NCBI GenBank assembly: GCA_016208495.1
Contig: JACQXX010000091.1
Coordinates: forward strand, 1-64,000
Direction of reading: 5' to 3'
DNA: 64,000 nucleotides
Source of the DNA: Acidobacteriota bacterium
Lineage (GTDB): Bacteria > Acidobacteriota > Blastocatellia > Chloracidobacteriales > Chloracidobacteriaceae
Part shown: positions 2,626 through 63,752 of the stretch, one piece after another
Position numbering within the stretch: position 1 is the first letter of the stretch
Layout: each line of letters starts with the position of its first letter
The notes under the pieces: generated by a model
Database searches by the model: none
Seen by the model: only the letters and a program-made list of their open reading frames with translations
What the model was told of the DNA's origin: nothing
Program-made: the position numbers and the translations under genes

Positions 2626-3002
2626 GTATGGGTACCATCCCATACCTGAAGCGAACCCCCGTGTCACTTCAAAAAATCGAAGACCTGCTCCAACCTGGTT
2701 CAAATCCATTTATCAGGTGGAGATTCCAAAAAATTAGATCGCCTGCCTGCCCCTCTCTCTGTCCATTTCGTCACCCAGAATCAGCTATTCCTCACTTTTT
2801 CATTGTTGTCCTGAGAATTTGGATTAAGTTTCGGTCCAAAGTACAAGCCAATTCAGATACTCAGTTCACTGGCGTCAAGAGATGTACCCATCAAGAGGTG
2901 CACATTGGCGTTTCTGGGGGTGTTTTTGTCTCTCAACGGCCCTTTGAGGCTCAATCGGGAACTATCACCCTCAACCAACAAGAAAAACAATGGGAGGACC
3001 CA

Positions 3003-6000
3003 ATGAATAACGGGTTAATTCGGTTTTGCGTACTCTCCATTCTGTTGCTCTTCGCGACGGTCGCGGCCTCTGCCCAGGCCACCGATGGTGGCATCAATGG
3101 GAAAGTCATTGATGAATCTGGGGCAGTCATCAGCGGCGCGTCGGTGAAGGTCACCAACATGGAAACAGGCTTCAGTTCAAGCGCCACAGCCGATGCTTCC
3201 GGTCTGTTTCGAATCAATTACCTTCCGGTTGGAAAGTATTCGATCTCAGCCGAAGCCAGCGGCTTCAAAACAACATCCATTGATAATATTGGGATTGCAC
3301 TCAATTCCATTATCGATGTCACCATCAAAATGCTGCCCGGTGAAGTCAGTGAAGTCGTCACTGTTTCAGGCGGCGATGTGCTGGTCGAGACCAGCAGCTC
3401 GATTCTCGGCAACACGTTTGAAGCCCGTAAGGTGGTTGAACTGCCCAGCTTCAACAATTCGCAACTCGAACTGGCGCTGCTGGCGCCAAATATCACGTCA
3501 CAGGCTGGCGGCACCGCTGGCGAAGGTGGTTCGGTCGGTGGCAATCGCCCCCGCAACAACAGCTTCACCCTGGATGGCGTGGACAACAACGATACCATTT
3601 TGACCGGTCACGTCATTGATGTGATTCCAGAAGCGGTGGCGGAATTCACCTTGCTGACCAATCAGTACACGGCTGAATTCGGGCACTCTTCCGCTGGTCA
3701 ATTCAACACCGTCACCAAATCCGGCACCAACGAATTTCACGGCGGTGCAAGCTGGTTCAACATCAACAAAAATTACAAGGCGGTTGACCACTTGACCAAG
3801 GAGTCAATTGCCCGTGGCGAAGCGCCAGACCGGCGACCGCGATTTGACTTCAACCGGGTGGCGGGGTATCTCGGCGGACCAATCGTCAAAAACAAGCTCT
3901 TCTTTTTCGGTGCCTATCAGTATGACACGACTGGCACGGCAGGGAACCCAGCGAGCTTTTTGACCCCAACCGCCGCCGGGTTTGCTCAGCTTGAAAACTT
4001 GAACGGGATCAGCCCCGTGACGCTCGGAATTTTCAAGCAGTATACAGTTCCTGCCGCCGCCGCCGAAGACTCAGTTCAGGTTTTGGGCCAGAATATTCCG
4101 GTTGGCACGGTCAACTTTCTGAATGCCAGCTTCCTGACCAACAAAATTTTCAATGTGAATGTGGATCAGGCGTTGGGTAACGGCGACCAGATCCGGTATC
4201 GCTACAATTATGCCAAATCCATTGCACCCAATAATGGCAACGGCAACCCGGTGTTTAACGGAGACTTTACCCAACTCAACCAGTTGGCTTCGGTTACCTT
4301 TATCCACAATTTTTCGCCGACATTGATTAACGAAACGCGAATTTCCTATCGCCGCAAAAACAACTCGTTTGGGATTCCGGAGGAATTTGCCAATTTCCCG
4401 AACTTTAGCTTTAACGATACCGGGTATGTCTTTGGGCCCCAGGGTGAATCACCCCAGGGTGAAACCACCAACAGCTACCAGTATGTCAACAACCTGACCT
4501 GGCTCAAGGGCAAACACACGCTGAAATTCGGGGTTGAATTCCGCAACGTCATTTCCTCCAACGGCTTCCTGCCACGCGGACGGGGTGAATATGACTACTC
4601 AACCCTCGAAGAGTTCCTGCGTGACCTCAAACCGACCGGCTTTAACGGTGGCTTGAAAGGTGTTGGCGCATCAACCTTTGCGGCCAATCGGAAATCCATT
4701 TACTGGTTTGCCCAGGATGACGTCAAACTCACCCAAAACCTGACGTTGAATTTGGGTCTGCGCTATGAGTTTTACACCATCTTCCGCGATGAAAAACTCC
4801 AGGCGCTCAACGCGATTGCCAATGTGCCAGGTGTCATCGAATTTGGTGTACCAAAGACCGACAAAAATAATTTTGCCCCACGCATCGGCCTGGCCTGGGC
4901 ACCAGATTTCAAAGAAGGCGTCGGTCACTTCCTGTTTGGCAACAACGGCGAAAGCTCAATCCGCGCCGGATTTGGAACATCCTTTGACGTCGCTTACGGC
5001 AACCTTGGGACGCTCCAGTTACCGCCGCAATTCCAGCAGGAACTCAATACTGCCACTGGTGACGGCGGTCCCTTTGGCACCCCTACCAATTTCATCGCCA
5101 ACGGAGGACTGGGCAATACCCCTGCTCCACCAAATACCCCAGCCGAAGCTCGCGCCGCAACATCCGCCTTTATTCCAGACCGGGTGTTGCCCTACACCAT
5201 GAGCTGGAGTTTGAGCTATCAGCGTCAGTTGCACCGCGACTGGAGTGTTGAACTCCGATACTTAGGCACGCGTGGTGTGAAACAGATTGCCCAAATTCGG
5301 ATTAACGGTGGGAATTCGATTTTCCCAATCGCCGGATTCAGCCTGCCAACCTATTTCAATGCGTCACAGGTGCCGGATCAGGGAACACTGGATTCAATGC
5401 GAACCCTGGATGAACTGGTGAATATTTCAATCTATGGAAATGGTGTTGGTGGTCTGGGTGTGGCTGATTTTGTCACCCCAACCGTGACCACGTTCCTTCC
5501 AGTGGGAAGCTCAACCTATCATTCTGGATCAGTTGATTTGACCAAGCGGTTTTCACATGGCTACACGATGTCAGCCGCTTACACGTTCAGCAAGACGATT
5601 GACTTTGGAACGAACGACCTGTTTACGAGCTTCATCAATCCACGCCGGGCCCAAGATGGCTTTAACCTGGGTGATATGCGTGGAACCTCAGCTCTGGATC
5701 GGCCACATCGGTTTGTAACCTCAATCATTTGGGAGCTGCCGTGGTTCCGCCAGCATCAGAATCGGCTTGTCCGCACACTGTTGGGCGGTTTCCAGTCCAA
5801 CCTGATCTACACGGCTGAAAGCGGTCAACCGTTTACGGCGTTGAGCGCCACTGACAGCAACCTCAACGGCGATACCGCCGGTGACCGGGCGTTGTTTAAT
5901 CCAAATGGTGTTCCAGGAACTGGCAGTGGCGTAACAGCAGTGACCAACTCAAACGGTCAAGTCGTCGGCTATCTCGCCATCAACCCAAATGCCCAGTACA

Positions 6001-11989: not shown

Positions 11990-12241
11990 GCGAATAGCTC
12001 TGGCTGGTGTCTTCGAGTGAAGTGAAAACGAAGGGGGGACGAATGAGGCGTGAACATTGGCCTTTCCGTCACCCTGTCCCCCTTGTCACTGTGTCTACCA
12101 CCGACCCTGGGCTTCGCACCACGGCTATTACACAACGACCCTCCGGGCCTGAAATGGCGCTTATGCCCTGTCACCTTGTCACCTTGTCACCTTGTCACCC
12201 TGTCACCCTGTCACCCTGTCACCCTGTCATCTTTGATTGAC
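11990..12241. repeat. Convergent intergenic region with an octanucleotide array
   Basis: Contains the dispersed block shared with 2515-2625 (12095-12170) and an array at about 12171-12231 of ACCTTGTC/ACCCTGTC units, period 8, about eight copies. It separates the convergent nuclease and GntR genes. No protein is encoded. Confidence 0.7.
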
Positions 12242-13272: not shown

Positions 13273-13998
13273 ATGAAATCTCTGACCTTATTATGTGTTG
13301 TGGCATTTGGGATTGCAGCTTCAGGGTATGGAAATGTATCGGGTGTGTTTTCCAAGGACGGTTCACTCAACAGTGGCATCCGGTACCAACAACCTCAATC
13401 TCCGGAAAAAGATGAGGAAATTGCACTTTTGGCGTCGTGGCTTCATGGTGATTACAATTCCCATGCTCAGGCAGACCGGGATGCAGCAGGAAAAGACCCG
13501 CTCGTTTTCAAACATCGAAAAATCACGATGCACCTCACCCCCTGCGCGATAGAAGGTCTGCCTGGCCCAACAGTGTATATCGAACAACACGCCTCCGAAG
13601 CGCCTGATCAACCCTATCGCCAGCGGATTTATCAGATTTTTCGGAAACGCGGCGAGGTTACGATTCGGACCTATGAACTCATCGGGGGTCGTGAAGCCGC
13701 TAAACCTTACATCATGGGCTATAAAAATCCCGAGGTCTTAAAATCAATCACCGCCACTAAACTCACACCCGTCTGTGATTTAGTAGTTCATCGCAAAGGC
13801 AAGGAATTTGTTGGAAAAACTCCCATGCCCTGCCCCAATATGTTTAATGGAGCGGTTGAAGTGACTTCAGACGTCACCATTGGTCCGGATTATCTGTTCA
13901 GCCTTGATCGTGGTTGGGCAGCCGACGGCCAGCAAGCCTGGGGTCCAAATGATGGCGTGGCTTTTGAATTTCGGCGGGTTAATTCTGCCAGTCAGTAG
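13273..13998 (+). CDS. CpcT/CpeT-like domain protein, secreted
   Basis: 241 aa with an N-terminal signal peptide (about 1-20). The body matches the CpcT/CpeT fold pattern: LASWLHGDYNSHAQA at the start, YIEQHASEAPDQPYRQRIYQI in the middle, and the C-terminal MPCPNMFNGAVEV and YLFSLDRGW stretches. In cyanobacteria this family attaches bilins to phycobiliproteins. No phycobiliprotein gene is visible here, and export argues for another role, perhaps lipocalin-like ligand binding. The start follows GGAGGG. The last two residues and the stop codon are formed by the first units of a CAGTAGT array. The gene is divergent from the GntR regulator, which may control it. Confidence 0.78.
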   Translation: MKSLTLLCVVAFGIAASGYGNVSGVFSKDGSLNSGIRYQQPQSPEKDEEIALLASWLHGDYNSHAQADRDAAGKDPLVFKHRKITMHLTPCAIEGLPGPTVYIEQHASEAPDQPYRQRIYQIFRKRGEVTIRTYELIGGREAAKPYIMGYKNPEVLKSITATKLTPVCDLVVHRKGKEFVGKTPMPCPNMFNGAVEVTSDVTIGPDYLFSLDRGWAADGQQAWGPNDGVAFEFRRVNSASQ

Positions 13999-14163
13999 TC
14001 AGTAGTCAGTAGTCAGTAGTCAGTAGTCGAGTGTTGGGAATTGAGAATCTGTGTCAAGTGTATTTGATTCTATTTATGCAATTTACGCGTGCGTTTTCCA
14101 AGGAAACATCAGACTTAAGTACCTGATTTTGGTCTACTAACTACTGACTACTGACTACTGACT
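13988..14163. repeat. Inverted pair of CAGTAGT heptamer arrays between convergent genes
   Basis: About five CAGTAGT units at 13993-14029 and the complementary ACTACTG units at 14134-14163 face each other across about 105 bp. The transcript from either side could fold into a long hairpin, a plausible bidirectional terminator. The upstream gene's stop codon lies inside the first array. Confidence 0.75.
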
Positions 14164-18677: not shown

Positions 18678-20285
18678 CTACTCGTCCGCACCTTCCGTGG
18701 CCAGGATAACCCCCTGCTGGGCGCACCAGGAAGCAAACGATTCAGCTTGCTGCGCCGCCAGACTCCGGCCAACCAGTCGCCGCAAATGATCGCTGAGCAC
18801 TTCCGCCGACCACCGTTCATAAATCCGTCGCTTGTCGGAAGCGAGAAGCTTTTCGCGCTCCTGGTCAATGCGCTGCTTGAGTTCGGTTTTTCTCATCCGC
18901 ACCAGCAATTCCTCACCCGTCCGCTCGAGGTAGTCAATGTAGCCAAGCTCAAGCAACTGCAGTTGTTCCGGATCGGTGATTTCTTCGAGGGCCGGTGCAT
19001 CAAGCGACTTTTGCGGTTTGGCCGGTGGTGCAGTCGGGGCCGGATCTTCACGCTCACGACCGCTCAGATCGTTCACGATCAAGGTGTAAAGAAACCCACC
19101 CGGGTTGATGAGTTTGCGGGTGCGATAGTGGCGGTCAAAAAAGCTGATTGATTTTTCGATGGCATCCAGTTTGCCCTGGGTGAGCATACTCTCCACCAGC
19201 CGCCCGGCCACGGTCGGAATCATTCCCCGCTCGGCCAGTTGCCGTTCGAGATGAAGTCCAAGGTCGTGATACGCCCGCTCTTCGGGTGACAAATCGTCTT
19301 CCTGCATATCGTCCACCGCGCTATAGAGCGGAAGGGCCAGTTGCATAATCCGCTGCCCGAATTTGGGGTTTTTGTAAAAATGCAGGGTTTCCTCGGTCAG
19401 CTTCCAGTCGGCCAAAAACTGCCGATCAACCAGTTCGTCAATGCCCGGCTCCAGGCGCTGCATAATCTGCGAGGTGTAAAGCAGATCCCGTGACATTCCG
19501 ATGTGTTCAAATGCCAGTTTTCGGGCGTTGATCACAAAATAATCCCCGCCCCCAAACTTCTTGTCGAGGTATCGAAACAACCGCTTGGCAATCGGCGAGG
19601 CCAGGGTGAAGTAAAACCCGGCGTCCAGCTTTTTGAACATTTTTTCGTTCAAGCTTTGGGCGACCCGGTCGCTCCAGAGGATGTAACTTTTGGCTTCGCC
19701 CTTTTTGCCCGAGGTTTCGTCAAAGATCTTGAATTCCTGGATGATACTCATCCCCACGTCAACCAGCTTGTTGGTTTGCCGGTCAACATAGGCGTTTTTG
19801 GCCTCGATGCGAACCGCCGCCAGTTTTTTGAGCGAGCTTTCGAGTCGTTCGTAGTGTTTGGCGTTCATGGGCCATCCCAGGCGGCGAATCAGATCGTACC
19901 GGCTGAAATACACTTTCTTCGATGCCCCTTGCTCGTGTGACAACTCCATCAAGGCCACATAGACATCTTCATCCGTCGTACTTGGTAAACCTTCAATCGG
20001 GTGAGCCAGCACGGTCCACGTTCGAGTAATCTCTCGACCATTGGAGTTGATGTTTTCAGTGAAGGTCAAATAGGACGTGATTTTTTGAGCGCGTTTATCC
20101 AAAACCGCAATTGGAAAAATCGCCAGATTGAATTCATCTTGCGAGATTCGAATCTGATCAGTGCGTTCGGTTTCTTCAGGCAAATTTTCAACGGCTTTGG
20201 GGGTTCGTTTCGGCGTTTTTTTGCGAGGTGATTCAGTCGTATCAAACAAACCTGTCGCACCCGGCTTGGGCGTTTTCTTGCGCAT
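18678..20285 (-). CDS. Plasmid-type replication initiator protein (RPA family)
   Basis: 535 aa from ATG 20285. A GTG twenty codons upstream is an alternative. A basic N-terminal tail of about 50 residues precedes the initiator core, which begins DQIRISQDEFNLAIFPIAVL and runs through FSRYDLIRRLGWPMNAKHYERLESSLKKL (winged helix) and SPIAKRLFRYLDKKF to about residue 300. The C-terminal third is helical and charged, as in other RPA initiators. Proteins of this family bind iterons and open plasmid origins. Twenty-three iterons lie directly upstream (20491-21150), so gene and origin form a complete replication module. No ParA/ParB is in the window. A palindrome at 20394-20419 may let the protein control its own promoter. 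Confidence 0.9.
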   Translation of the reverse strand: MRKKTPKPGATGLFDTTESPRKKTPKRTPKAVENLPEETERTDQIRISQDEFNLAIFPIAVLDKRAQKITSYLTFTENINSNGREITRTWTVLAHPIEGLPSTTDEDVYVALMELSHEQGASKKVYFSRYDLIRRLGWPMNAKHYERLESSLKKLAAVRIEAKNAYVDRQTNKLVDVGMSIIQEFKIFDETSGKKGEAKSYILWSDRVAQSLNEKMFKKLDAGFYFTLASPIAKRLFRYLDKKFGGGDYFVINARKLAFEHIGMSRDLLYTSQIMQRLEPGIDELVDRQFLADWKLTEETLHFYKNPKFGQRIMQLALPLYSAVDDMQEDDLSPEERAYHDLGLHLERQLAERGMIPTVAGRLVESMLTQGKLDAIEKSISFFDRHYRTRKLINPGGFLYTLIVNDLSGREREDPAPTAPPAKPQKSLDAPALEEITDPEQLQLLELGYIDYLERTGEELLVRMRKTELKQRIDQEREKLLASDKRRIYERWSAEVLSDHLRRLVGRSLAAQQAESFASWCAQQGVILATEGADE

Positions 20286-20379
20286 AAGGCACTGTTTCCC
20301 TGGTTTTTCCCGATCTGGTGGGGAGTAAAGCTGATTTTGCACCACTTCGGAGGATGGATTTCTTGCCTACGCGTGCGCA

Positions 20380-20391
20380 CATGCGCGCATG
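20380..20391. promoter_or_regulatory. GC-rich palindrome upstream of rep
   Basis: CATGCGCGCATG, a perfect 12-bp palindrome in a run of alternating purine/pyrimidine (Z-DNA-prone) sequence, directly beside the AT-rich palindrome. Role unknown. Confidence 0.4.
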
Positions 20392-20393
20392 CG

Positions 20394-20419
20394 TGATGTA
20401 TATATAAATATATACATCA
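20394..20419. promoter_or_regulatory. AT-rich palindrome, candidate rep promoter/operator
   Basis: Arms TGATGTATATATA and AATATATACATCA pair with one mismatch over 26 bp. It lies about 110 bp upstream of the rep start. The site may hold the -10 region and an autoregulatory operator, as in other iteron plasmids. This is inferred from position and symmetry. Confidence 0.5.
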
Positions 20420-20490
20420 TTCTTATAGTTATCACCATACAGTTAATGCGGCCACAAAGTGTTGAAAATAAAGGACTTAAGTGGCATTTT

Positions 20491-20684
20491 TTATGTCAAA
20501 GGTCAATAGTCTTTATGTCAAAGGTCAATAGTCTTATGTCAAAGGTCAATAGTTGTTTATGTCAAAGGTCAATAGTTCGCTGCGGTTTTATGTCAAAGGT
20601 CAATAGTTGTTTATGTCAAAGGTCAATAGTTCGCTGTGTTTTTATGTCAAAGGTCAATAGTTGTTTATGTCAAAGGTCAATAGT
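20491..20684 (+). repeat. Iteron cluster 1, eight copies
   Basis: Eight exact copies of TTATGTCAAAGGTCAATAGT start at 20491, 20513, 20534, 20557, 20588, 20611, 20642 and 20665. Start-to-start spacing is 22, 21, 23, 31, 23, 31 and 23 bp, so some pairs sit on different helical faces. Confidence 0.95.
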
Positions 20685-20742
20685 TTGCCCCATTTTTAAG
20701 AAAATTTCGCCCATTCTTTCTGATTGTGGTTTTAGTTTGAGT

Positions 20743-20764
20743 GAACCACAACATATTGTGGTTC
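20743..20764. promoter_or_regulatory. Palindrome in the spacer between iteron clusters
   Basis: GAACCACAA and TTGTGGTTC form a perfect 9-bp inverted repeat around CATA. A partial third copy (TTGTGGTTT) lies just before it at about 20725. Its place inside an AT-rich gap between iterons suits a binding site for a host factor or the melting region. Confidence 0.5.
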
Positions 20765-20809
20765 AGAGGGCGTGGGAAAGCGCTCAAATGCCAGTTTTTA
20801 GCTCGTTTT

Positions 20810-21150
20810 TTATGTCAAAGGTCAATAGTTTTTATGTCAAAGGTCAATAGTTGTTTATGCCAAAGGTCAATAATTGTTTATGCCAAAGGTCAATAGTGAC
20901 TTATGCCAAAGGTCAATAGTGACTTATGTCAAAGGTCAATAGTGGCTTATGTCAAAGGTCAATAGTGGCTTATGTCAAAGGTCAATAGTGACTTATGTCA
21001 AAGGTCAATAGTGACTTATGTCAAAGGTCAATAGTGACTTATGTCAAAGGTCAATAGTGGCTTATGTCAAAGGTCAATAGTGACTTATGTCAAAGATCAA
21101 TAGTGACTTATGTCAAAGGTCAATAGTGGCTTATGTCAAAGGTCCATACC
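20810..21150 (+). repeat. Iteron cluster 2, fifteen copies
   Basis: Fifteen copies, all in the same direction as cluster 1. From 20878 to 21131 they recur every 23 bp exactly, with TGAC or GGC in the 3-bp gaps. Three copies read ATGCC instead of ATGTC (20855, 20878, 20901), one has CAAAGATCAA (21085), and the last (21131) decays after GGTC. Confidence 0.95.
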
Positions 21151-21584: not shown

Positions 21585-23741
21585 ATGAAGCAGCAACATC
21601 AAGCCAAATTTACCATCATTTCACCCCACGGCCAGCGAACTGAATACCCCATAACGGCAACACCTGTCTCTATTGGACGCAATGAGCAGAACATGATTGT
21701 GCTGTTTGACGAGCGGGCGTCACGCTTTCATGCGGTCATTGAACAAAACGGCAGTTCCTTTGTCATTCGTGATGACCTCAGCCGTAATGGAACATTTGTC
21801 AATGGGTTAGAACTTCCTCGCAAGGTCAACCGGGTTTTGATTGATGGAGATGAAATCCGGGTCGGTAACTTCCGACTGCAGTTCCATCTCACCCAAACTT
21901 CCGCTGCCAACCTCGACTACGATGACCGGCCAATTGCTGAAGGAACGGTCGTTTTTAAGAGTGCCGCCGATTTATTAAAGCCTCTGACCACGCTTTCAGG
22001 GGATGTTTCCCGGCTGGCCAGTGGGGGCTTTCCTTCAGTTCCCTCGGGTTCCAAATTGAATCAGGTTGAAGCCGCCGCTTCACCGTTCACCATGATTGAC
22101 CAGTCGTTTGCCACCGAAATGGAGATCCTGGCCAAACGCAGCCGCATCCTGGAGTTTGTTTATGAACTCAACAAGATGCTGAACCGGGTTTTCAAAATCG
22201 AGGAAATTTACGAAAAGATTGCCGAGCAGATTTTTAAGATCTCAAATGCGGGGCGAATCATCTTTGCCCAGCCGAATGAAGAAGAGGTAGAGATCAACTG
22301 GGGGAAATATCGGGATGAATCGGTGTTAAAGAAATATGACGGTATTCCGGTCAGCCGAACCATTATTCGGCGGGTGATTCGGGACCGGGTCTCGTTGCTT
22401 TCGGTTGACCCGATGGCTGACCCAGGGCTGAAGCAGCATGATACCTTTCGATTAGGCCGGATTCGGTCGGTGATGTGTGTGCCGATGCTTGGCCAGGAGG
22501 AAAAGGCGTTGGGTGCCATTTATGTTGATCGCCCGGACCCGATCAGTTTTACCAACGAAGATCTCAACTTTCTCACCGCGCTGGCTGCCAATTCCGCCAT
22601 GGCGGTCGAAAACATCAAAGTTCACGAGAAATTGTTGCATGATGCCGAAGCCCGGCTGGCTTATCAGCGGTTTCTGCCCCCGTTTGTGGTTGAACAAATT
22701 ATGGCTGACCCAGACAGCCTGGCTCTGGGCGGAGTCAATCAAATTGTCACGGTGCTCTTTGCCGATATTCGTGGGTTTACCACCCTGTCGGAACGGAAAT
22801 CACCTCAGGAAATCGTCAGCTTGTTGAATCGGTACTTTGAGCGGGCCGCCGCCGCCATTTTCAAATACAACGGCACCCTGGATAAATTTATTGGCGATGG
22901 CATCATGGCGTTGTTTGGCGCTCCAAAACCGTCTGATGCGGATGCCGTGAATGCCATTCAGGCCGCGATTGAACTGAAACGGCAGGTGACTGAATTCAAC
23001 CAGGAGCTCGAAGCTGAAAACTCGGATATACAACTCACCATTGGAATTGGCATTAACACGGGTGAGGTCACGGTCGGGTATATCGGGTCAAAATTGCGAA
23101 CCGATTATACGGTGATCGGAGACCCGGTGAATTTGGCGGCCCGGTTGGAGTCAAATGCGAAAAATGGTCAGATTTTGATTGGAGAACAAACTTATGTTGC
23201 CGCTCGGGCTTATATGCTTGGGTTGCACGACGATGTGTTGAATAGCAGTCTGGATGGAACCGCCTGGTCTGAATCCGGAAGCCAGAAGTTTGATTTTTCC
23301 ATGCGGCCTATTGGAGGCTTGAAAGTAAAGGGCAAAACCAAGTCGGTTCAGGTCTATCAGGTCTATTGGGATGGCCAACCCCCGGAGTCCAGATTGGAAC
23401 CGGCCTCTCCGCCACCTCAAGGGAGCCCCGATCCAAAGGCCGAAGCCGGCTCCGAACGCCGCAAGGAACCACGTATCTTGCTGGCCATTAAAATTCAGGT
23501 CCGGGGCAACGGCATTGATGGCCGCCCTTTTGACGAGGTGTGTGTGACCGAAGATATCAGTGTGTCTGGCGCCTGTCTGGCCCTGGTCCATGAGGTTCGC
23601 GTTGGGGACCATCTGGTCATTCGCGGAACCGATAGCGTATTTCAGGCCCAGGCCGAGATTCGGTCAGTGAAATTTGCCCACAACCACTATCGGACCGGCA
23701 TTCAATTTATTTCCAATTATCCAGTCTGGCAATTAAAGTGA
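21585..23741 (+). CDS. FHA-GAF-class III nucleotidyl cyclase-PilZ signalling protein
   Basis: 718-aa soluble multidomain protein. The FHA domain (about 5-105) has IGRNEQN, SRFHAVI and SRNGTFVNG, the phosphothreonine-binding signature. The GAF domain spans about 180-345. The class III adenylate/guanylate cyclase domain (about 385-580) carries both metal-binding aspartates, Asp394 in FADIRGF and Asp438 in FIGDGIMALF, plus GDPVNLAARLE, so it should be active. The C-terminal PilZ domain (about 622-718) has R626-x3-R630 and D657-x-S659-x2-G662, the c-di-GMP binding motifs. The protein thus appears able to read phosphorylation, a GAF ligand and c-di-GMP, and to make cAMP or cGMP. It lies beside the rep origin and seems monocistronic. 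Confidence 0.92.
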   Translation: MKQQHQAKFTIISPHGQRTEYPITATPVSIGRNEQNMIVLFDERASRFHAVIEQNGSSFVIRDDLSRNGTFVNGLELPRKVNRVLIDGDEIRVGNFRLQFHLTQTSAANLDYDDRPIAEGTVVFKSAADLLKPLTTLSGDVSRLASGGFPSVPSGSKLNQVEAAASPFTMIDQSFATEMEILAKRSRILEFVYELNKMLNRVFKIEEIYEKIAEQIFKISNAGRIIFAQPNEEEVEINWGKYRDESVLKKYDGIPVSRTIIRRVIRDRVSLLSVDPMADPGLKQHDTFRLGRIRSVMCVPMLGQEEKALGAIYVDRPDPISFTNEDLNFLTALAANSAMAVENIKVHEKLLHDAEARLAYQRFLPPFVVEQIMADPDSLALGGVNQIVTVLFADIRGFTTLSERKSPQEIVSLLNRYFERAAAAIFKYNGTLDKFIGDGIMALFGAPKPSDADAVNAIQAAIELKRQVTEFNQELEAENSDIQLTIGIGINTGEVTVGYIGSKLRTDYTVIGDPVNLAARLESNAKNGQILIGEQTYVAARAYMLGLHDDVLNSSLDGTAWSESGSQKFDFSMRPIGGLKVKGKTKSVQVYQVYWDGQPPESRLEPASPPPQGSPDPKAEAGSERRKEPRILLAIKIQVRGNGIDGRPFDEVCVTEDISVSGACLALVHEVRVGDHLVIRGTDSVFQAQAEIRSVKFAHNHYRTGIQFISNYPVWQLK

Positions 23742-29800: not shown

Positions 29801-30512
29801 GACCCCAGGCAGTTATGCGTTGACGGTTTCGGGAACTGCCTTCGGCGCCGGTATTTTTCCAGCGACGGCAACCCTGGTGGTCTCGGGCAATGGCGGCGGC
29901 AATGGCAGCGTTTCCCTTTCAACCAATCCAACCAGCCAGACAGTTCAAGCTGGTGAGGTGGCCCAATATTCAATTCGATTAAATCGAAACAACTTTGATG
30001 GCGAGGTCAAACTTGGGATTGGCACTTTGCCGGCGGGAGTCACCGCCCGGTTCGACCCAGATCGAACCACGGGAAATAGTTCGCAATTGACCTTGCAGGT
30101 GGGTGTCAGCACTCCAGGCGGTACCTACCAGATTCCAGTGGGTGGCCTGGCCACTGGCGCGACGATCAGTGGCACAACCCTGATGTTGATCGTAAACACA
30201 GCTCCGCAAGCCTCGGTCACCATTTCGGTTTCACCACCATCCCGAACCCTTACGCTGGGTGGCAGCGCATCTTTCTCGATCAATCTGGCCCGAATGAACT
30301 ACACTGGCGCGGTCTCCCTCAGCGCGGCGGGTCTTCCTACGGGCGTGACCGCCGTTTTTAATCCCGAAAGCACGCTTGGCAACAGCGCAAATTTAACGCT
30401 TTCGGCCAGAACTGATGCTCCGACGGGCACCTACACGATTCGAATCAACGGCGCCACCACCGGAGGCGTCACCATCAATCAACCAACCATAACCATAACC
30501 ATTCAACGATGA
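26886..30512 (+). CDS. Giant secreted IPT/Big2/NHL protein with six Ig-like repeats, overlapping hpnC
   Basis: 1208 aa with a signal peptide (about 1-30, cleavage near AVGQS). Order of domains: IPT/TIG (about 32-112), Big2-like (113-190), an NHL-type six-bladed propeller (about 195-510), a second IPT/TIG (about 515-595), then six repeats of about 100 residues (597-1208). Each repeat is built on the pattern P-x-x-x-x-I-x-x-G-x-x-A-x-F, then N-F-x-G-x-V, GLPxGxxAxFxPE and L-x-I. The repeats look like Ig-fold modules of surface proteins. No anchor or sorting signal is obvious. The TGA stop overlaps the ATG of hpnC (ATGA at 30509-30512), so translation is coupled to hopanoid synthesis, which is unexpected for a surface protein. 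Confidence 0.8.
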   Translation: MPCSESFQVAITRICLSVIFLFCLSQSAVGQSPTITSVKPEQTPVGQIPAKVVLKGTGFEANSVVVINTTPVSAKIKPSGKKIVIKELPAELFQTSGLLEIKVIPATGQESNIIRLTVGSLNTIQLIAPAELVVNVGDTVSLQAQVLDAQGVPLPNEVISYSTLTPDQATVDQTGIVTGVQTGAATIRLTSGEAIRDLVITVTDVASIPSGIVGDGDIKVDSQNRVYATDLRRHIIRSAPVGQPLVEFAGAPDLPGNIDGALTSSRFNGPLGLGLGNNSQFVYLADTANQSIRRFNRETGTVETVVGLADVAAVAGVDSWGPRGVVEAQPGDLYITDADNHVVWRVRLGTPNEISVFAGTIGQPGILDGVGNNALFNAPQDLVSGTQQSILVVTDRGNRLVRLIALPDGQVTTVGSIVSARALTRTNRYVPKQSVTFGDPQGVEIDSIGNLYVTDGNTVRVVELQDTTFVVSDLAQSGTFQNATGISLAGGSAYVLDSGKQQVIRVTLGAPPSISDLNINEIKAGQSTELTINGSNFIPNTQVKIGAQLVYTVRVENASRIRCLLPPQPESGPLQITVQHRGGSATTTVNVVSAPFFQLALEPFERSVTAGQMIDYKVRIQRSNFEGNVALSVSGLPTGAQARFQPNVTTAGESTLTVATANTIEPGKYPIQVTGFTSGVTATAEGLLIVTRPEPGTVAISINPSTKTIAPGQNATFQIALNRSNFIGPVKLLAEGVPGGARVDFAPSELNGNSSILTITTLNTVAEGTYRILIKGLAENTPVQAATLTLTIQKAASGGGVRIVATPASQTITAGQAATFNLELQRTNFSGDVRFSVSGLPPGATASFRPESTTGTNSQLIVTTAASTPTGTVKINISGSASGTSVTPTSVTLAINSSGGGGSTVRVQVSPETKTIQAGQSASFAVNLVRTNFTGEVRFALLGLPAGTQATFNPEKTTGTTATLTIATLTSVTPGSYALTVSGTAFGAGIFPATATLVVSGNGGGNGSVSLSTNPTSQTVQAGEVAQYSIRLNRNNFDGEVKLGIGTLPAGVTARFDPDRTTGNSSQLTLQVGVSTPGGTYQIPVGGLATGATISGTTLMLIVNTAPQASVTISVSPPSRTLTLGGSASFSINLARMNYTGAVSLSAAGLPTGVTAVFNPESTLGNSANLTLSARTDAPTGTYTIRINGATTGGVTINQPTITITIQR

Positions 30513-31420
30513 GTTCCAAAGCGAAACCTGTTCCGACTGAAACCGAATCGCATCAGTCACTTGCCGCACGATCCTGGACCCTTGACCAGGCGTTTGAACA
30601 TTGCCGCCGGATTGCGTTGGGGCATTATGAAAACTTCCCGGTTGGCTCGCTTTTGATCCCCAAAGCGCATCGTCCGCATGTCTACAGCGTCTATGCTTTT
30701 GCCCGGGCGGCGGATGATTTTGCCGACGAAGGAACGTTGAGTCAGGCTGAACGCCTGGGACTTATGGAAAACTGGCGAGAGCAGCTTGTTGATTGTGTTA
30801 ATGGAAAGGCAACCCACCCGGTATTTCTGGCGCTGGCTGAATCAATCAAAGTCAACCGACTGCCACTCCAACTGTTTCATGATCTGCTGGATGCCTTTAC
30901 GATTGATATTGAGCGGTCACGTCACCAGACTTTTGACGCCTTGCTTGACTATAGCCGCTGTTCAGCCAATCCGGTGGGTCGGCTGATTTTGCTGTTGTTT
31001 GGGCACCGTGACGAGCAACTGGCGTGCTGGTCGGATGATATTTGCACGGCATTGCAACTGACCAATTTCTGGCAGGATGTTCTGGTTGATCTGGCCAAAG
31101 ACCGGATTTACATCCCACTGGGCGAAATGGAACGCTTTGGCTATACCGAATTGGACCTTAAAGCTGGTCGTTACACCCCGGAATATATTGCCTTGATGCA
31201 GTCGCTGGCTGATCGAACCGCTGCCCTGTTTGAACGCGGCAAACCATTGTGTTCGGCGGTTGGAGGTCGCCTTGGGTGGGAATTGCGGTTGACGTGGCGC
31301 GGAGGAACGAGCATTTTGGAAGCCTGTCGGCGCAATCAATTCAATGTGTTCCAGAATCGTCCTGTGATTGACACCCGGCAGAAACTCAAAATTGCCTTGA
31401 CAGCCTGGCTCCCGCTATGA
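30509..31420 (+). CDS. hpnC: Hydroxysqualene synthase HpnC
   Basis: 303-aa member of the squalene/phytoene synthase family, likely the enzyme that turns presqualene diphosphate into hydroxysqualene. The first Asp-rich motif is AADDFADE (Asp69, Asp70, Asp73). The second is in NFWQDVLVDLAKDR (about 185-198). The RSRHQTFDALLDYSRCSANPVGRL segment fits HpnC rather than HpnD. It begins inside the stop codon of the preceding secreted-protein gene and is followed by hpnD and hpnE in the usual C-D-E order, separated by about 180 and 106 bp. Intergenic material between hpnC and hpnD is repeat-like (AAACCACGG words). Confidence 0.92.
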   Translation: MSSKAKPVPTETESHQSLAARSWTLDQAFEHCRRIALGHYENFPVGSLLIPKAHRPHVYSVYAFARAADDFADEGTLSQAERLGLMENWREQLVDCVNGKATHPVFLALAESIKVNRLPLQLFHDLLDAFTIDIERSRHQTFDALLDYSRCSANPVGRLILLLFGHRDEQLACWSDDICTALQLTNFWQDVLVDLAKDRIYIPLGEMERFGYTELDLKAGRYTPEYIALMQSLADRTAALFERGKPLCSAVGGRLGWELRLTWRGGTSILEACRRNQFNVFQNRPVIDTRQKLKIALTAWLPL

Positions 31421-31602
31421 AGAGTCTCCCCCGATTCTGAAGTTCCCCAGTGGCATGGATTTTCAGCATAAGAAACCACGGAAACCACGGAATACACAGA
31501 AAATAAATCCAGGTTCTTCAACGATTTCTGAGATTCTACCGAAACACGAACCGAGGAAATAGTTGTCTGAAAAACGAGAGCCGCCATTTTCAAACCGCAG
31601 CC

Positions 31603-32463
31603 ATGTCCCAGACCATTGACCAATCCAATCAAACCGCCGAAGTCATTACCCATCAATCGAGTACCAATTTCCTGTACTCTTTTTTGGTCTTACCACGTCC
31701 AAAACGCGAAGCAATTGAAACAGTCTACGCCTTTTGCCGGGTGGTTGATGATATTGTGGACGAAGAACATCCCGCCACCGACCCACGCCAGGAACTCAAC
31801 CGCTGGCGCGCGGAAATTGCCAGTTGTTTTGACGACCAGACACCAGCCACGCAACTTGGCCGCGATATTAAACGGATTGTGGCCCAGTTTCCCATTCCCC
31901 AACATTTGTTTGAGGACATGATTGATGGAATGGAGATGGATCTGGATCAGCGTCGGTATGCCACATTTGAAGAACTGGAAGAATATTGTTATCACGTGGC
32001 AAGCGTGACCGGTCTGATGTGCATTGAAATCTTTGGGTACAGCCAGCCAGGCACCAGAGACTATGCCATCAAACTGGGAAAAGCCCTGCAAATGGTCAAT
32101 ATCATGCGGGATTTGAAAGAGGACACACGGCGCGGACGGGTATACCTGCCCCAGGATGAACTCATCCAGTTTGGATATTCTGAAAAGGACCTGTTTTCCG
32201 AAGTGTACAATTCGAATTTTGTGGCCCTGATGCGACACCAGGGAGAACGAGCGCGGACCTTTTTCAAACAGGCTCGCGAAGCACTGCACCCAACTGACCG
32301 CCCACGGATGGTCTCAGCCGAGATTATGGGACGGATTTACTTCAAAATTCTCGAACGGATCGAAGCCGCCAGCTACAACGTGTTTGACGATACCTTCAAA
32401 TTGAGCAAAGCCGAAAAAGCACTGGTTGCCATCAGTACCTGGTTAAGAATGCGACTACGATGA
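31603..32463 (+). CDS. hpnD: Presqualene diphosphate synthase HpnD
   Basis: 286 aa, squalene/phytoene synthase fold. Condenses two farnesyl diphosphates to presqualene diphosphate, the first step of the HpnD-HpnC-HpnE squalene route. Asp-rich motif 1 is VVDDIVDEE (Asp49, Asp50, Asp53) and motif 2 is NIMRDLKEDTRRGRVYLP, with the strongly conserved DxxxDxxRGRxYLP. The FEELEEYCYHVASVTGLM segment is typical for this branch. Neighbours hpnC and hpnE confirm the assignment. Confidence 0.93.
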   Translation: MSQTIDQSNQTAEVITHQSSTNFLYSFLVLPRPKREAIETVYAFCRVVDDIVDEEHPATDPRQELNRWRAEIASCFDDQTPATQLGRDIKRIVAQFPIPQHLFEDMIDGMEMDLDQRRYATFEELEEYCYHVASVTGLMCIEIFGYSQPGTRDYAIKLGKALQMVNIMRDLKEDTRRGRVYLPQDELIQFGYSEKDLFSEVYNSNFVALMRHQGERARTFFKQAREALHPTDRPRMVSAEIMGRIYFKILERIEAASYNVFDDTFKLSKAEKALVAISTWLRMRLR

Positions 32464-32495
32464 GTCAGTACCATCTGCGTGAGCGGGTGGGTGGC
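32463..32495. repeat. REP-like element, single copy
   Basis: GTCAGTACCATCTGCGTGAG followed by CGGGTGG, nearly the same as the left half of the 61352-61420 hairpin. It overlaps the stop codon of hpnD. Confidence 0.5.
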
Positions 32496-32569
32496 GGAGA
32501 AAAAAGGACACAAAGGACATAAAAGACGGAAACGACATTCTTTCGAAGATCTCAAACCTTTAAGAAACT

Positions 32570-33934
32570 ATGACGAACCCATTGTTACCACTCTCAAAAA
32601 CAGTCGTCGTCATTGGCGGAGGCTTTGCCGGGCTGGCTACGGCCACGGCGCTGGCTGAGGCTGGGTATCAGGTTCAGGTCATTGAACGCCGGCCATTTTT
32701 GGGTGGGCGAGCTTACTCGATGCGCGATGCGAAAACCGGTGATGTGATTGATAACGGCCAGCATTTGATGATGGGGTGTTATCGCGAGACATTTGCGTTT
32801 CTGCGCCGAATTGGGAGTTTCGATCTGGTTGAATTCCAAAATCAGTCGCGGGTGGATTTTCTGGACCGCGATAGTCACCAGACGTTGGAATGTCCAAACC
32901 TTCCGGCGCCGCTTCACTTGCTGGCCGGATTGTTCCGATTGGGTGGGATTTCATTCGGAGACAAACTCCGGACGCTCAGAATTGGCGGTGCCTTGCGCTT
33001 GAGAAATGGCGCGCTGGAAAAAAAACTCGGCCATTTGACAGTTGATCAATGGTTGTCGGCCTGTGGGCAATCGGCGCTGATGAAAGAACGGTTCTGGGAA
33101 CCACTGACAGTGGCCACGCTCAACGAAGCGCTCACCGTGGCGCCCGCCAAACTCCTGGCCCGGGTGCTCCAGGATGGCTTTGGCGGCACGAAGCAGGATT
33201 CCTGCATGGTGACTTCAAAAGTTGGCTTGAGTGAGCTTTATACTGAACAATCAAAACAGTTTATCGAAGCGCGTGGTGGAAAAGTCCTGGTCAACACGGC
33301 GGTTTCAAAGGTTGTGATTGAATCAAACCGTTTTGTGGGCATTGAACTGGCTGGCGGTGAGCGTATCACTGCCGAAAGTTGTGTGAGTGCTGTTCCCTAC
33401 TTTGCCCTCAAGAAGCTCCTGCCCGCCGAAGTTTTTGAAACCTCGCCTTTTTTTGCCGGCTGGAAAGATTTTCAATCAGCCCCAATTGTATCCATCAACG
33501 TGTGGTTTGACCGACCCGTGATGGATCTGGCGTTTGCCGGAATGATTGGGACGCGAATCCAGTGGGTGTTTAACAAAGAAGTCATCGTCAAACACAATCC
33601 GCGCGATTTGCAACACCTGGCGCTCATCATCAGCGCCGCGCACGACTTTGCCAAAATTCCGAAAGAACACCTGGTCGAACTGGCCGTGGAAGATCTTCGC
33701 TCGGTGTTACCCGCCGCACGCGAAGCGAAGGTGGTGCATTCGTTCGTGGTCAAAGAACACGACGCCACGCTTTCCGCTTCGCCCGAAGTCGAAAAAGCCC
33801 GTCCAAATCCCCAGACACCGATTTCAAATTTTCTGCTGGCCGGAGATTGGACCAACACTCACCTGCCAGCCACGATTGAAGGCGCGGTTCTGAGCGGGCA
33901 TCTCTGTGCGAGACTGGTGTCAGGTAGCCTGTGA
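32570..33934 (+). CDS. hpnE: Hydroxysqualene dehydroxylase HpnE (FAD-dependent)
   Basis: 454-aa flavoprotein of the amine-oxidase/phytoene-desaturase class that reduces hydroxysqualene to squalene. N-terminal dinucleotide motif VVVIGGGFAGLATA (about 12-25), then ERRPFLGGRAYS, the FAD ribose-binding and GGR motifs. A C-terminal FAD contact is seen in LLAGDWTNTHLPATIEGAVLSG. DNGQHLMMGCY is characteristic of HpnE. It closes the hpnCDE set. The squalene-hopene cyclase (hpnF) is not next to it. Confidence 0.92.
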   Translation: MTNPLLPLSKTVVVIGGGFAGLATATALAEAGYQVQVIERRPFLGGRAYSMRDAKTGDVIDNGQHLMMGCYRETFAFLRRIGSFDLVEFQNQSRVDFLDRDSHQTLECPNLPAPLHLLAGLFRLGGISFGDKLRTLRIGGALRLRNGALEKKLGHLTVDQWLSACGQSALMKERFWEPLTVATLNEALTVAPAKLLARVLQDGFGGTKQDSCMVTSKVGLSELYTEQSKQFIEARGGKVLVNTAVSKVVIESNRFVGIELAGGERITAESCVSAVPYFALKKLLPAEVFETSPFFAGWKDFQSAPIVSINVWFDRPVMDLAFAGMIGTRIQWVFNKEVIVKHNPRDLQHLALIISAAHDFAKIPKEHLVELAVEDLRSVLPAAREAKVVHSFVVKEHDATLSASPEVEKARPNPQTPISNFLLAGDWTNTHLPATIEGAVLSGHLCARLVSGSL

Positions 33935-34924: not shown

Positions 34925-35084
34925 AAGGCAAAAAGGCAAAAAGGTAAAAAGGCAAAAGGGACATAAAGGACATAAAGGACATAAGCAAAAAGGGGAAAGA
35001 ACTGTAGATTCTTTCCCCTTTTTGCTTTTTCGAAAACCCGGAACCCGGAACCCGGAACCCGGAACCCGGAACCCTGCTCTTCCC
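34925..35084. repeat. Convergent intergenic repeats with a 19-bp perfect hairpin and ACCCGGA array
   Basis: AAAAAGGC words (period 8) and ACATAAAGG words (period 9) lie at 34926-34985. A perfect 19-bp inverted repeat follows (34983-35001 / 35009-35027, loop CTGTAGA), flanked by A- and T-rich tracts, so it can terminate both strands. Five ACCCGGA heptamers occupy 35036-35070. Confidence 0.85.
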
Positions 35085-38608: not shown

Positions 38609-38769
38609 GACGGTTTGTCCTTTGGTTGAATCAGATTATGGAAACAGAAACATCAAATATTCAGGGTTCAGGGTTCAGGGTTCAGGGTTCAGAGATTTCA
38701 AATTTATGTCGTTTGTGTCCCTTTAGTCTTTTATGTCATTTTGGAACCTTGAACCCTGAACCCTCATTC
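38609..38769. repeat. TTCAGGG array and complementary GAACCCT words in the pilus-like operon
   Basis: TTCAGGG repeats at 38660-38693 face AACCTTGAACCCTGAACCCT at 38745-38764 within the 161-bp gap between the PilO-like and PilB-like genes. Sequence between the arms is unique. Confidence 0.75.
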
Positions 38770-60120: not shown

Positions 60121-60153
60121 AGGAATTATGAATTATGAATTATGAATTATGAA
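60121..60153. repeat. TTATGAA heptamer array abutting the SRAP start codon
   Basis: Four TTATGAA units (60126-60153) directly upstream of ATG 60120 on the minus strand. The same heptamer occurs at 39363-39397. Confidence 0.8.
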
Positions 60154-62285: not shown

Positions 62286-63752
62286 ATGAATTTCATGAAG
62301 ACGTTGCTCTTAAACCCACCTTCATTCGAAGGATTTGACGGTGGCGCCAGTTCCCGATGGCCGGCGACCCGCGAAATTGCTTCCTACTGGTATCCGGTTT
62401 GGTTGGCATACCCGGCGGGAATGATTCCCAATTCACGGCTCCTGGATGCCCCTCCACATGGGGTGAGTGTTCAGCAAACGTTGGAAATTGCGAAAGACTA
62501 TGAATTTGTCGTCCTTTTTACAAGCACTCCGGGCTTGAACAACGACATTAAACTGGCTGAAATGATGAAAGCCAATGATCCAAAGATCAAAATTTGCTTT
62601 GTCGGCCCGCCGGTGACTTCGAATCCAGAAGAAATCCTTCGCTCTTCCAGTGCCATTGATTTTGCTGCCCGCAAGGAATTTGACTACACGGTCAAAGAAT
62701 TTGCTGAAGGCCGTTCATTAGAGGAAATTGACGGCGTCAGTTATATCAAAGATGGCCAGATTGTGCATCGGCCAGATCGTCCTCAGTTGCATGACCTGGA
62801 TTCGCTGCCGTTTGCCTCGGAAATCTACCACCGGGATCTGGACATCACGAAATACAACGTGCCGTTTTTGTTACACCCATACATTGCCTTTTATTCAACC
62901 CGTGGGTGTCCGGCACTGTGCACCTTCTGCTTGTGGCCGCAAACCATCAGCGGCCATGCCTGGCGCGAACGCAGCATTCCCAATATGGTCGAAGAAGTCA
63001 AAGTGGCGCTCAAACTCTTCCCCGAGATGAAGGAAATTTTCTTTGACGACGATACCTTCTCCTGGAAGAAATCGCGGACAATCAATATCTCGAAAGAGTT
63101 TCAAAAGATTGGCTTTACCTGGTCCTGCACCTCACGCGTCCATTCCGATTACGACACGCTCAAAGCCATGAAAGATGGCGGATGTCGGTTGATGATCGTT
63201 GGGTTTGAATCCGGCGATGATCAGGTGCTCAAGAACATCAAAAAAGGCGCCACGGTCGAAATGGGCCGCAAGTTTATGAAAAACTGCAAAAAACTTGGGC
63301 TGGCCGTCCACGGGGATTTCATCCTGGGCTTGCCGGGCGACACGCCGGAAACCATCAAACGCACGATTGAGTTTGCCAAGGAACTTGACTGCGAAACCAT
63401 TCAGGTCTCGATTGCTCATGCCTATCCGGGAACTGAACTCTATGACTATTTGAAGGAAGCCGGGTTGCTGACCGAACACGCCATGACGGACGAAGAAGGC
63501 CATCAATTGCCGCATATTGAATATCCAGGGTTGACCCGTGGTGAACTGATGCGCAATGTCGAAAATTTCTACGACACCTACTATTTCCGACCCAAAGTCG
63601 TGGCGCGCATTGTTGGAAAAGCCATCTTCGATAAAGAAGAACGCAACCGCCTCTTTACCGAAGCTCGTCAGTTCCTGAAACTGCGGTCAAAACGCAAAGA
63701 GTTTGTTCGTGCCCAGATGAACCGCGAAAGCGGGCTGCATAAAGGGGTGTAA
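62286..63752 (+). CDS. hpnJ: Hopanoid biosynthesis radical SAM protein HpnJ
   Basis: 488 aa. An N-terminal cobalamin-binding-like domain (about 1-150) is followed by a radical SAM barrel with Cys-x3-Cys-x2-Cys in STRGCPALCTFCLWPQT (about 200-216). FDDDTFSWKK, GFESGDDQVLKNIKKG and GLPGDTPETIKRTI are the usual B12-radical SAM landmarks, and CLWPQTISGH is HpnJ-like. In Burkholderia, HpnJ is needed to convert the glucosaminyl head group of bacteriohopanetetrol to the cyclitol ether. It is followed directly by hpnK. Confidence 0.92.
   Translation: MNFMKTLLLNPPSFEGFDGGASSRWPATREIASYWYPVWLAYPAGMIPNSRLLDAPPHGVSVQQTLEIAKDYEFVVLFTSTPGLNNDIKLAEMMKANDPKIKICFVGPPVTSNPEEILRSSSAIDFAARKEFDYTVKEFAEGRSLEEIDGVSYIKDGQIVHRPDRPQLHDLDSLPFASEIYHRDLDITKYNVPFLLHPYIAFYSTRGCPALCTFCLWPQTISGHAWRERSIPNMVEEVKVALKLFPEMKEIFFDDDTFSWKKSRTINISKEFQKIGFTWSCTSRVHSDYDTLKAMKDGGCRLMIVGFESGDDQVLKNIKKGATVEMGRKFMKNCKKLGLAVHGDFILGLPGDTPETIKRTIEFAKELDCETIQVSIAHAYPGTELYDYLKEAGLLTEHAMTDEEGHQLPHIEYPGLTRGELMRNVENFYDTYYFRPKVVARIVGKAIFDKEERNRLFTEARQFLKLRSKRKEFVRAQMNRESGLHKGV

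Follow-up and report, generated by a model that had tools for sequence, protein, structure and literature searches.

An iteron-bearing RPA-type module as the very probable origin of a chromid in the Chloracidobacteriaceae, with putative distal iterons in Chloracidobacterium

Replicon coordination in two-chromosome bacteria is known in detail mainly from Vibrio. On chromosome 2 of Vibrio cholerae, six sites for the initiator RctB are found within 74 kb, at a distance of 40 kb from ori2, where they titrate RctB and inhibit initiation (PMC6090056). An iteron array likewise serves the second chromosome of Deinococcus radiodurans, whose cisII comprises 11 iterons upstream of parAB and is reported to work with DnaA and ParB, with no recognised initiator (PMC7671480); its iteron sequence differs from the one described here. 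In the phylum Acidobacteriota, the genus Chloracidobacterium has two circular chromosomes, the strain B genome being 3,695,372 bp (PMC8245765). The second replicon is termed a chromid and reported for 9 of 10 genomes (PMC12456017), so the chromid status of this replicon is already published. As far as their available text goes, two Chloracidobacterium genome papers describe neither an initiator nor an origin for chromosome 2; the original genome paper belongs to literature outside the search, and the literature searched for iterons in Acidobacteriota yielded nothing but an unrelated paper on plasmid host range. As far as could be checked, the chromid origin, its extension to relatives with large genomes and the distal iterons considered below are new.

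The DNA analysed here (the window) constitutes the initial 64 kb of a 180,098-bp contig, C91, in a draft genome of 8.38 Mb and 177 contigs from the family Chloracidobacteriaceae. It was originally predicted from the letters alone that the window carries an RPA-family initiator gene beside 23 direct iterons and AT-rich palindromes, and a link to the two-chromosome genus Chloracidobacterium was proposed. That link proved sound: both belong to the same family, and Chloracidobacterium chromosome 2 has, like the window, an orthologous initiator, an identical iteron word, the same neighbour gene and the same gene content. The two differ in that the window belongs to an 8.4-Mb genome of a different genus and bears 23 iterons, as opposed to 13–14 in Chloracidobacterium. 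The features are collected in Table 1.

Table 1. Coordinates of the features of the module, its surroundings and related elements in the family
Feature	Sequence	Position	Strand	Remarks
RPA/TrfA-type replication initiator gene	window	18678..20285	-	535 aa from ATG at 20285; ORF open upstream to GTG at 20345
Perfect AT-rich palindrome TGATGTATATAT-AA-ATATATACATCA	window	20394..20419		between initiator gene and iterons
Iteron cluster 1	window	about 20491..20684	+	8 iterons
Central-spacer palindrome ACAACATATTGTGG, core of GAACCACAACATATTGTGGTTC	window	20748..20761		kept between clusters in 9/9 family origins
Iteron cluster 2	window	about 20810..21150	+	15 iterons, 22–23-nt spacing, final copy degenerate
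FHA-GAF-adenylate/guanylate cyclase-PilZ gene	window	21585..23741	+	conserved origin neighbour
hpnC-hpnD-hpnE hopanoid genes	window	30509..33934	+	orthologs on Chloracidobacterium chromosome 2, 894074–908654
hpnJ	window	62286..63752	+	71% identical to Chloracidobacterium chromosome 2 gene 306791–308248
Intragenic distal iterons	G006:C2 (strain B, chromosome 2)	348303, 741774, 908440, 974066, 174642, 555926		orthologs of several in G001, G002, G003, G004, G007, G008
Further RPA/TrfA-type initiators	G000 (genome of the window)	C36 10159–10824; C40 35832–36464; C80 74593–74961; C111 36221–37744; C160 17927–18592; C177 1428–2219

The initiator assignment stands. The minus-strand ORF 18678–20345 matches both the Pfam family RPA (PF10134; E 1.8e-11, 44.5 bits, cut-off 27) and the family TrfA (PF07042; E 2.6e-6, 27.2 bits, cut-off 22) above their curated cut-offs. 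The ATG at 20285 is probably the true start and is preferred because the nearest ortholog begins there. The same sequence family includes plasmid initiators of Planctomycetes, Rubrobacter, Deinococcus and Alcaligenes, whose replicons measure 20–475 kb; in the best plasmid match, 65% of the protein aligns at 33% identity. As a whole, the AlphaFold model is of low quality (mean pLDDT 55.5, pTM 0.25) because just six close sequences were usable, and it can be interpreted only in residues 214–312. This stretch is predicted to resemble the second winged helix (WH2) of iteron-binding initiators, with RepE54 as the closest match (Z 9.5, 92 residues, rmsd 3.2), followed by RepA of pPS10 (Z 7.8) and RctB of V. 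cholerae (Z 6.8). The modelled WH2 match agrees with the Pfam placement among the iteron-binding initiators, and the initiator shows both the domain matches and the predicted RepE54-like WH2 of a Rep/TrfA/RPA-type iteron replicon. Foldseek alone gave no match for the model under E 0.001, searches of solved structures by sequence, using either the initiator or the family profile as query, yielded no true relative, and no NCBIfam model covers these initiators.

The predicted 23 direct iterons are also real, and they lie where they had been placed. The window contains exactly 23 copies of the 19-mer TATGTCAAAGGTCAATAGT with up to three mismatches, all on the plus strand and divided into groups of 8 and 15, while 100 dinucleotide-preserving shuffles gave a mean of 0.01 copies and a maximum of 1. 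Start-to-start distances are 21–23 nt, mostly 22–23 nt (two helical turns), except for two steps of 31 nt and the 145-nt step that separates the clusters. The AT-rich palindromes are likewise present, one between the gene and the array and a second within the spacer. The former is a candidate autoregulation site or part of an unwinding element, and the AT peak of the region (20399–20448, 80% AT) falls here. Thus, direct repeats about two helical turns apart stand beside an initiator gene together with an AT-rich stretch, as in replicons of the Rep/TrfA/RPA type. No canonical DnaA box is conserved across the family origins, and the 64-kb window contains neither a tRNA nor an Rfam match. A similar repeat occurs in the Alcaligenes faecalis TrfA plasmid NZ_CP096917.1, whose iteron shares GTCAAAGGTCAATAGTG with the window; at 2997–3080, beside the TrfA gene, its iterons CGTGGGTCAAAGGTCAATAGTG have 17 bases in common with the window iteron, even though the two initiators show a mere 31% identity or so over 65 residues.

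The module recurs throughout the family. An orthologous initiator, 66–76% identical, is encoded in eight of nine other family genomes (9/10 with the genome of the window), and an iteron word of the TATGTCAAAGGTCAATAGT type adjoins it in every one of them. In all three finished genomes, each of two contigs (about 2.7 and 1.0 Mb), the initiator is located on the 1.0-Mb contig, i.e., chromosome 2; one of them is Chloracidobacterium thermophilum strain B, with contigs of 2,683,362 and 1,012,010 bp. All nine family origins have the same two-cluster layout, with a central spacer of about 110–130 nt that bears the palindrome ACAAnATnTTGTGG, of which one genome (G009) has an additional similar copy in a later spacer. 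In most relatives the AT peak keeps this offset, lying at –66 to –95 nt relative to the first iteron. Aside from these common traits, genera other than Chloracidobacterium have an outlying iteron about 120 nt beyond the second cluster, and the Chloracidobacterium origin includes one iteron in inverted orientation, which is 28 nt from the first direct copy, lies on the side of the main clusters that faces the initiator gene and is likely an autoregulation site. The FHA-GAF-cyclase gene next to the array has a 46% identical ortholog just past the iterons of Chloracidobacterium chromosome 2 (989090–991093) and is adjacent in G009 too. Initiator and iterons have been kept together across four genera (that of the window, Chloracidobacterium and two more), and in the sister family, where three of four genomes have orthologs, the iteron is related but changed (TATTAACAGTTGAAATAA instead of TATTGACCTTTGACATAA). 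Such co-conservation and co-variation indirectly support binding of the initiator to the iterons. One Chloracidobacterium draft (G003, 90 contigs, 99% complete) gave no initiator match, though distal iterons are present in it.

Strand asymmetry changes sign at the module. On chromosome 2 of strain B (1,012 kb), where the iterons occupy 992.2–992.7 kb, keto skew reaches its minimum at 994,373, at one end of the initiator gene (993,017–994,549), and its maximum at 353,029. GC skew is lowest at 1,008,539, some 16 kb away from the iterons, within a near-tie that extends across 992–1,012 kb. On the 180-kb contig C91, the keto-skew minimum lies at 18,826, within the initiator gene, while the GC-skew minimum is broad, less exact, and located at 52,332. 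The skew change suggested for this locus is therefore seen in keto skew, and the GC-skew minimum is elsewhere on the contig. A module sharing its replicon with dnaA/oriC and lacking any skew change is not what was found, since the sole DnaA of the genome is encoded on another contig, C56, which also has the top-scoring ParB, and keto skew turns within the initiator gene.

Gene content and composition complete the picture. The ORFs of C91 and, as a control, those of 100 kb of the dnaA contig were compared with chromosome 2 (1,012 kb) and with 880 kb of chromosome 1. At cut-offs of 50% identity and 70% coverage, the best matches divide between chromosomes 2 and 1 as 15:0 for C91 and 1:8 for the dnaA contig, and at 40% and 60% as 23:2 and 2:10 (Fisher P about 1e-5); one third of chromosome 1 entered the comparison, so that some genes may match better there, a point of which the contrast between the two contigs is independent. 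The expected hopanoid genes (hpnC, hpnD, hpnE and hpnJ) are indeed present on C91, which also carries nicotinate phosphoribosyltransferase. As in chromids, a plasmid-type replication system (an RPA initiator with 23 iterons, dnaA being elsewhere) is combined with a composition close to that of the main chromosome: GC is 50.4% in C91 and 50.8% in the dnaA contig, with a tetranucleotide correlation of 0.87, and the same comparison in Chloracidobacterium gives 61.2% and 60.8%, with a correlation of 0.98.

No ParB is encoded on C91, in accordance with the original remark that no ParA/ParB is visible. The finished chromosome 2 carries parAB at a distance of 19 kb from the iterons; in the genome of the window, the ParB closest to it (45% over 318 residues) is encoded on contig C149, along with the ortholog of a gene situated 18 kb from the chromosome 2 origin. 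Judging from these matches, C149 probably contributes the parAB of the chromid, and C91 and C149 are probably parts of one replicon; the absence of parAB from C91 is then explained by the fragmented assembly. The canonical parS TGTTTCACGTGAAACA, with up to three mismatches, was not found on C91, and only scattered weak matches occur on chromosome 2. Chromosome 1 has two ParABs of its own (G006:C1 1502184 and 2645412), with 60–76% identical counterparts on contigs C116 and C56 of the genome of the window.

Of the two readings left side by side at the outset, a chromid or an integrated megaplasmid, the former is borne out by the ortholog on Chloracidobacterium chromosome 2, its iterons and the shared gene content, and the latter is disfavoured. 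Since the initiator–iteron unit is conserved on chromosome 2, strand skew changes direction at it and the genes around it are those of chromosome 2, the sequence comparisons make it very probable that a chromid common to the Chloracidobacteriaceae and long retained replicates from this module, a reading that in the genome of the window rests on a 177-contig draft, with no separate circular replicon seen directly. It might be argued that the origin of a plasmid or megaplasmid was taken up by the main chromosome, where it now lies idle or plays a secondary part, given that C91 has metabolic genes and no parAB and has not been seen as a circle. Such a capture is highly improbable, however: the genes of C91 match chromosome 2 and not chromosome 1, with the dnaA contig showing the opposite, the initiator has been preserved with cognate iterons across four genera, and skew turns at the module.

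An ordinary accessory megaplasmid, acquired separately by each genus, would fit the abundance of such elements in this genome, in which at least six other RPA-type initiators have iterons of their own, as well as the patchy distribution outside the order, where only 5 of 148 genomes have orthologs. This explanation is nevertheless very unlikely. The initiator is present in 12 of the 14 genomes of the order; in the initiator tree, the family forms one clade, apart from the six other RPA-type initiators of the genome of the window, with the genus Chloracidobacterium staying together and G008, a member of another genus, as its sister; neighbour genes and gene content are conserved, and the composition equals that of the chromosome. 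The simplest reading of the tree and the distribution is that a plasmid was captured ahead of the diversification of the family, and perhaps of the order. The further initiators (at least six; Table 1) each adjoin a distinct iteron array, e.g., TGGGTCCAGCAAATACCCCACT, GGTCCAGAGACTCCCCCATGTT or CACTGGTGCTAATGAAGTACCA; together with 11 ParB genes, the six listed suggest a genome of many replicons.

In Chloracidobacterium, the iteron is not confined to the origin. A whole-genome search for the iteron word (an 18-mer with at most one mismatch, or the exact 16-mer core) in the three finished genomes revealed single copies far from the array, all on chromosome 2, and none on the approximately 7.9 Mb of chromosome 1 that these genomes comprise, even though chromosome 1 is about 2.6 times larger than chromosome 2. 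In strain B, seven distal iterons are located –437, –251, –84, –18, +29, +194 and +368 kb away from the array; the one at +368 kb is 5 kb from the skew maximum. They score 28–40 bits, compared with about 18 for the best word in random sequence of matching composition, and no iteron above 12 bits occurs in the 880 kb of chromosome 1 that were scored.

Five distal sites were compared between species, and all five occupy orthologous positions within coding sequence. When the synonymous identity of a site is ranked among all windows in its gene, it takes rank 1 of 365 in gene A (CobB/CobQ-type amidotransferase), 9 of 252 in gene B (no Pfam family), 1 of 410 in gene C (HpnE-type oxidase) and 1 of 588 in gene D (PPDK N-domain). 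In gene C, a codon of the site alternates between ATG and ACG, matching the variation inside the origin array. Site E (9714) was not accepted as a proven distal iteron, being one core base off the consensus and not exceptional in its conservation. Site D is shared with G008, which has several additional distal sites. Thus, as expected from Vibrio-type distal sites, there are five orthologous initiator-type sites far from the origin in several Chloracidobacterium lineages; four of the five have codon support, and one is also present in a second genus.

Could the scattered words be conserved for another reason, such as a protein motif or a transcription-factor site? Their location, in coding sequence in 5/5 cases, and the behaviour of site E would allow it, but one DNA word recurs, on either strand, in the genes of unrelated proteins (CobB/CobQ-type, HpnE-type and PPDK), its synonymous positions are frozen, the ATG/ACG variation follows the origin array, and chromosome 1 has no such sites; this explanation is unlikely. 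It can be inferred, by analogy with the RctB sites on V. cholerae chromosome 2, that the distal iterons titrate or tether the initiator; alternatively, they may organise or mark the chromosome. In both systems, an iteron chromid has its own initiator and bears initiator-type sites remote from its origin. In contrast, the initiator of V. cholerae belongs to another family and its distal sites are clustered within 74 kb, whereas those of Chloracidobacterium are single, dispersed and intragenic. Nor does the likeness extend to crtS: the absence of the iteron word from chromosome 1 of the three finished genomes means that there is no crtS of the same sequence there, although this search would overlook a crtS with an unrelated sequence. 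The chances are about even that, in the RPA-type chromid of Chloracidobacterium and its sister genus, a replicon-wide system of single iterons within genes has evolved, to which the initiator binds and by which replication of that chromid is reported or limited. Such iterons would parallel the RctB titration sites of Vibrio while having an independent origin, and would range from the vicinity of the replication origin as far as the terminus, in genes under double selection.

In the genome of the window, the orthologs of genes C (hpnE), D and E are devoid of the iteron, and at most two distal sites are present, as exact cores outside the array on contigs C161 and C138, the former of which carries genes matching chromosome 2. 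The distal system thus appears to be a feature of the branch uniting Chloracidobacterium and G008, and its presence in the genome of the window is doubtful. Among four genomes of the sister family, one possible distal copy of the iteron of that family was seen, which provides no evidence of the system there. Gene D is instructive in this respect: at the corresponding place, the genome of the window has LLTFD codons that are related to the word without matching it, whereas Chloracidobacterium and G008 have an exact iteron that encodes ILTFDVK, which suggests a way in which control sites can originate within coding sequence.

By comparison with the Rep, TrfA and RctB families, the following course of events may be envisaged. 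Monomers of the initiator would attach to the direct iterons, bending the DNA. They would open the AT-rich stretch that separates the iterons from the initiator gene and assist in loading the helicase. Handcuffing, i.e., the pairing of iteron clusters bridged by the initiator, together with binding to the initiator promoter, would restrict initiation to about once per cell cycle. The distal iterons would bind the same initiator and, once doubled by the passing fork, draw it off the origin. Such a chromid would differ from that of Vibrio in its phylum and in its initiator, and has been kept across at least four genera. Its origin can now be placed to within about 1 kb in bacteria whose relatives grow in pure culture, and the distal iterons offer a specific, testable prediction on initiator titration.

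Finally, the window has short tandem repeats of 7 and 8 bases at 12166–12229, 13990–14028, 35035–35074, 38660–38692, 48052–48084 and 60123–60153, and similar repeats are found near the initiators on contigs C36 and C80.
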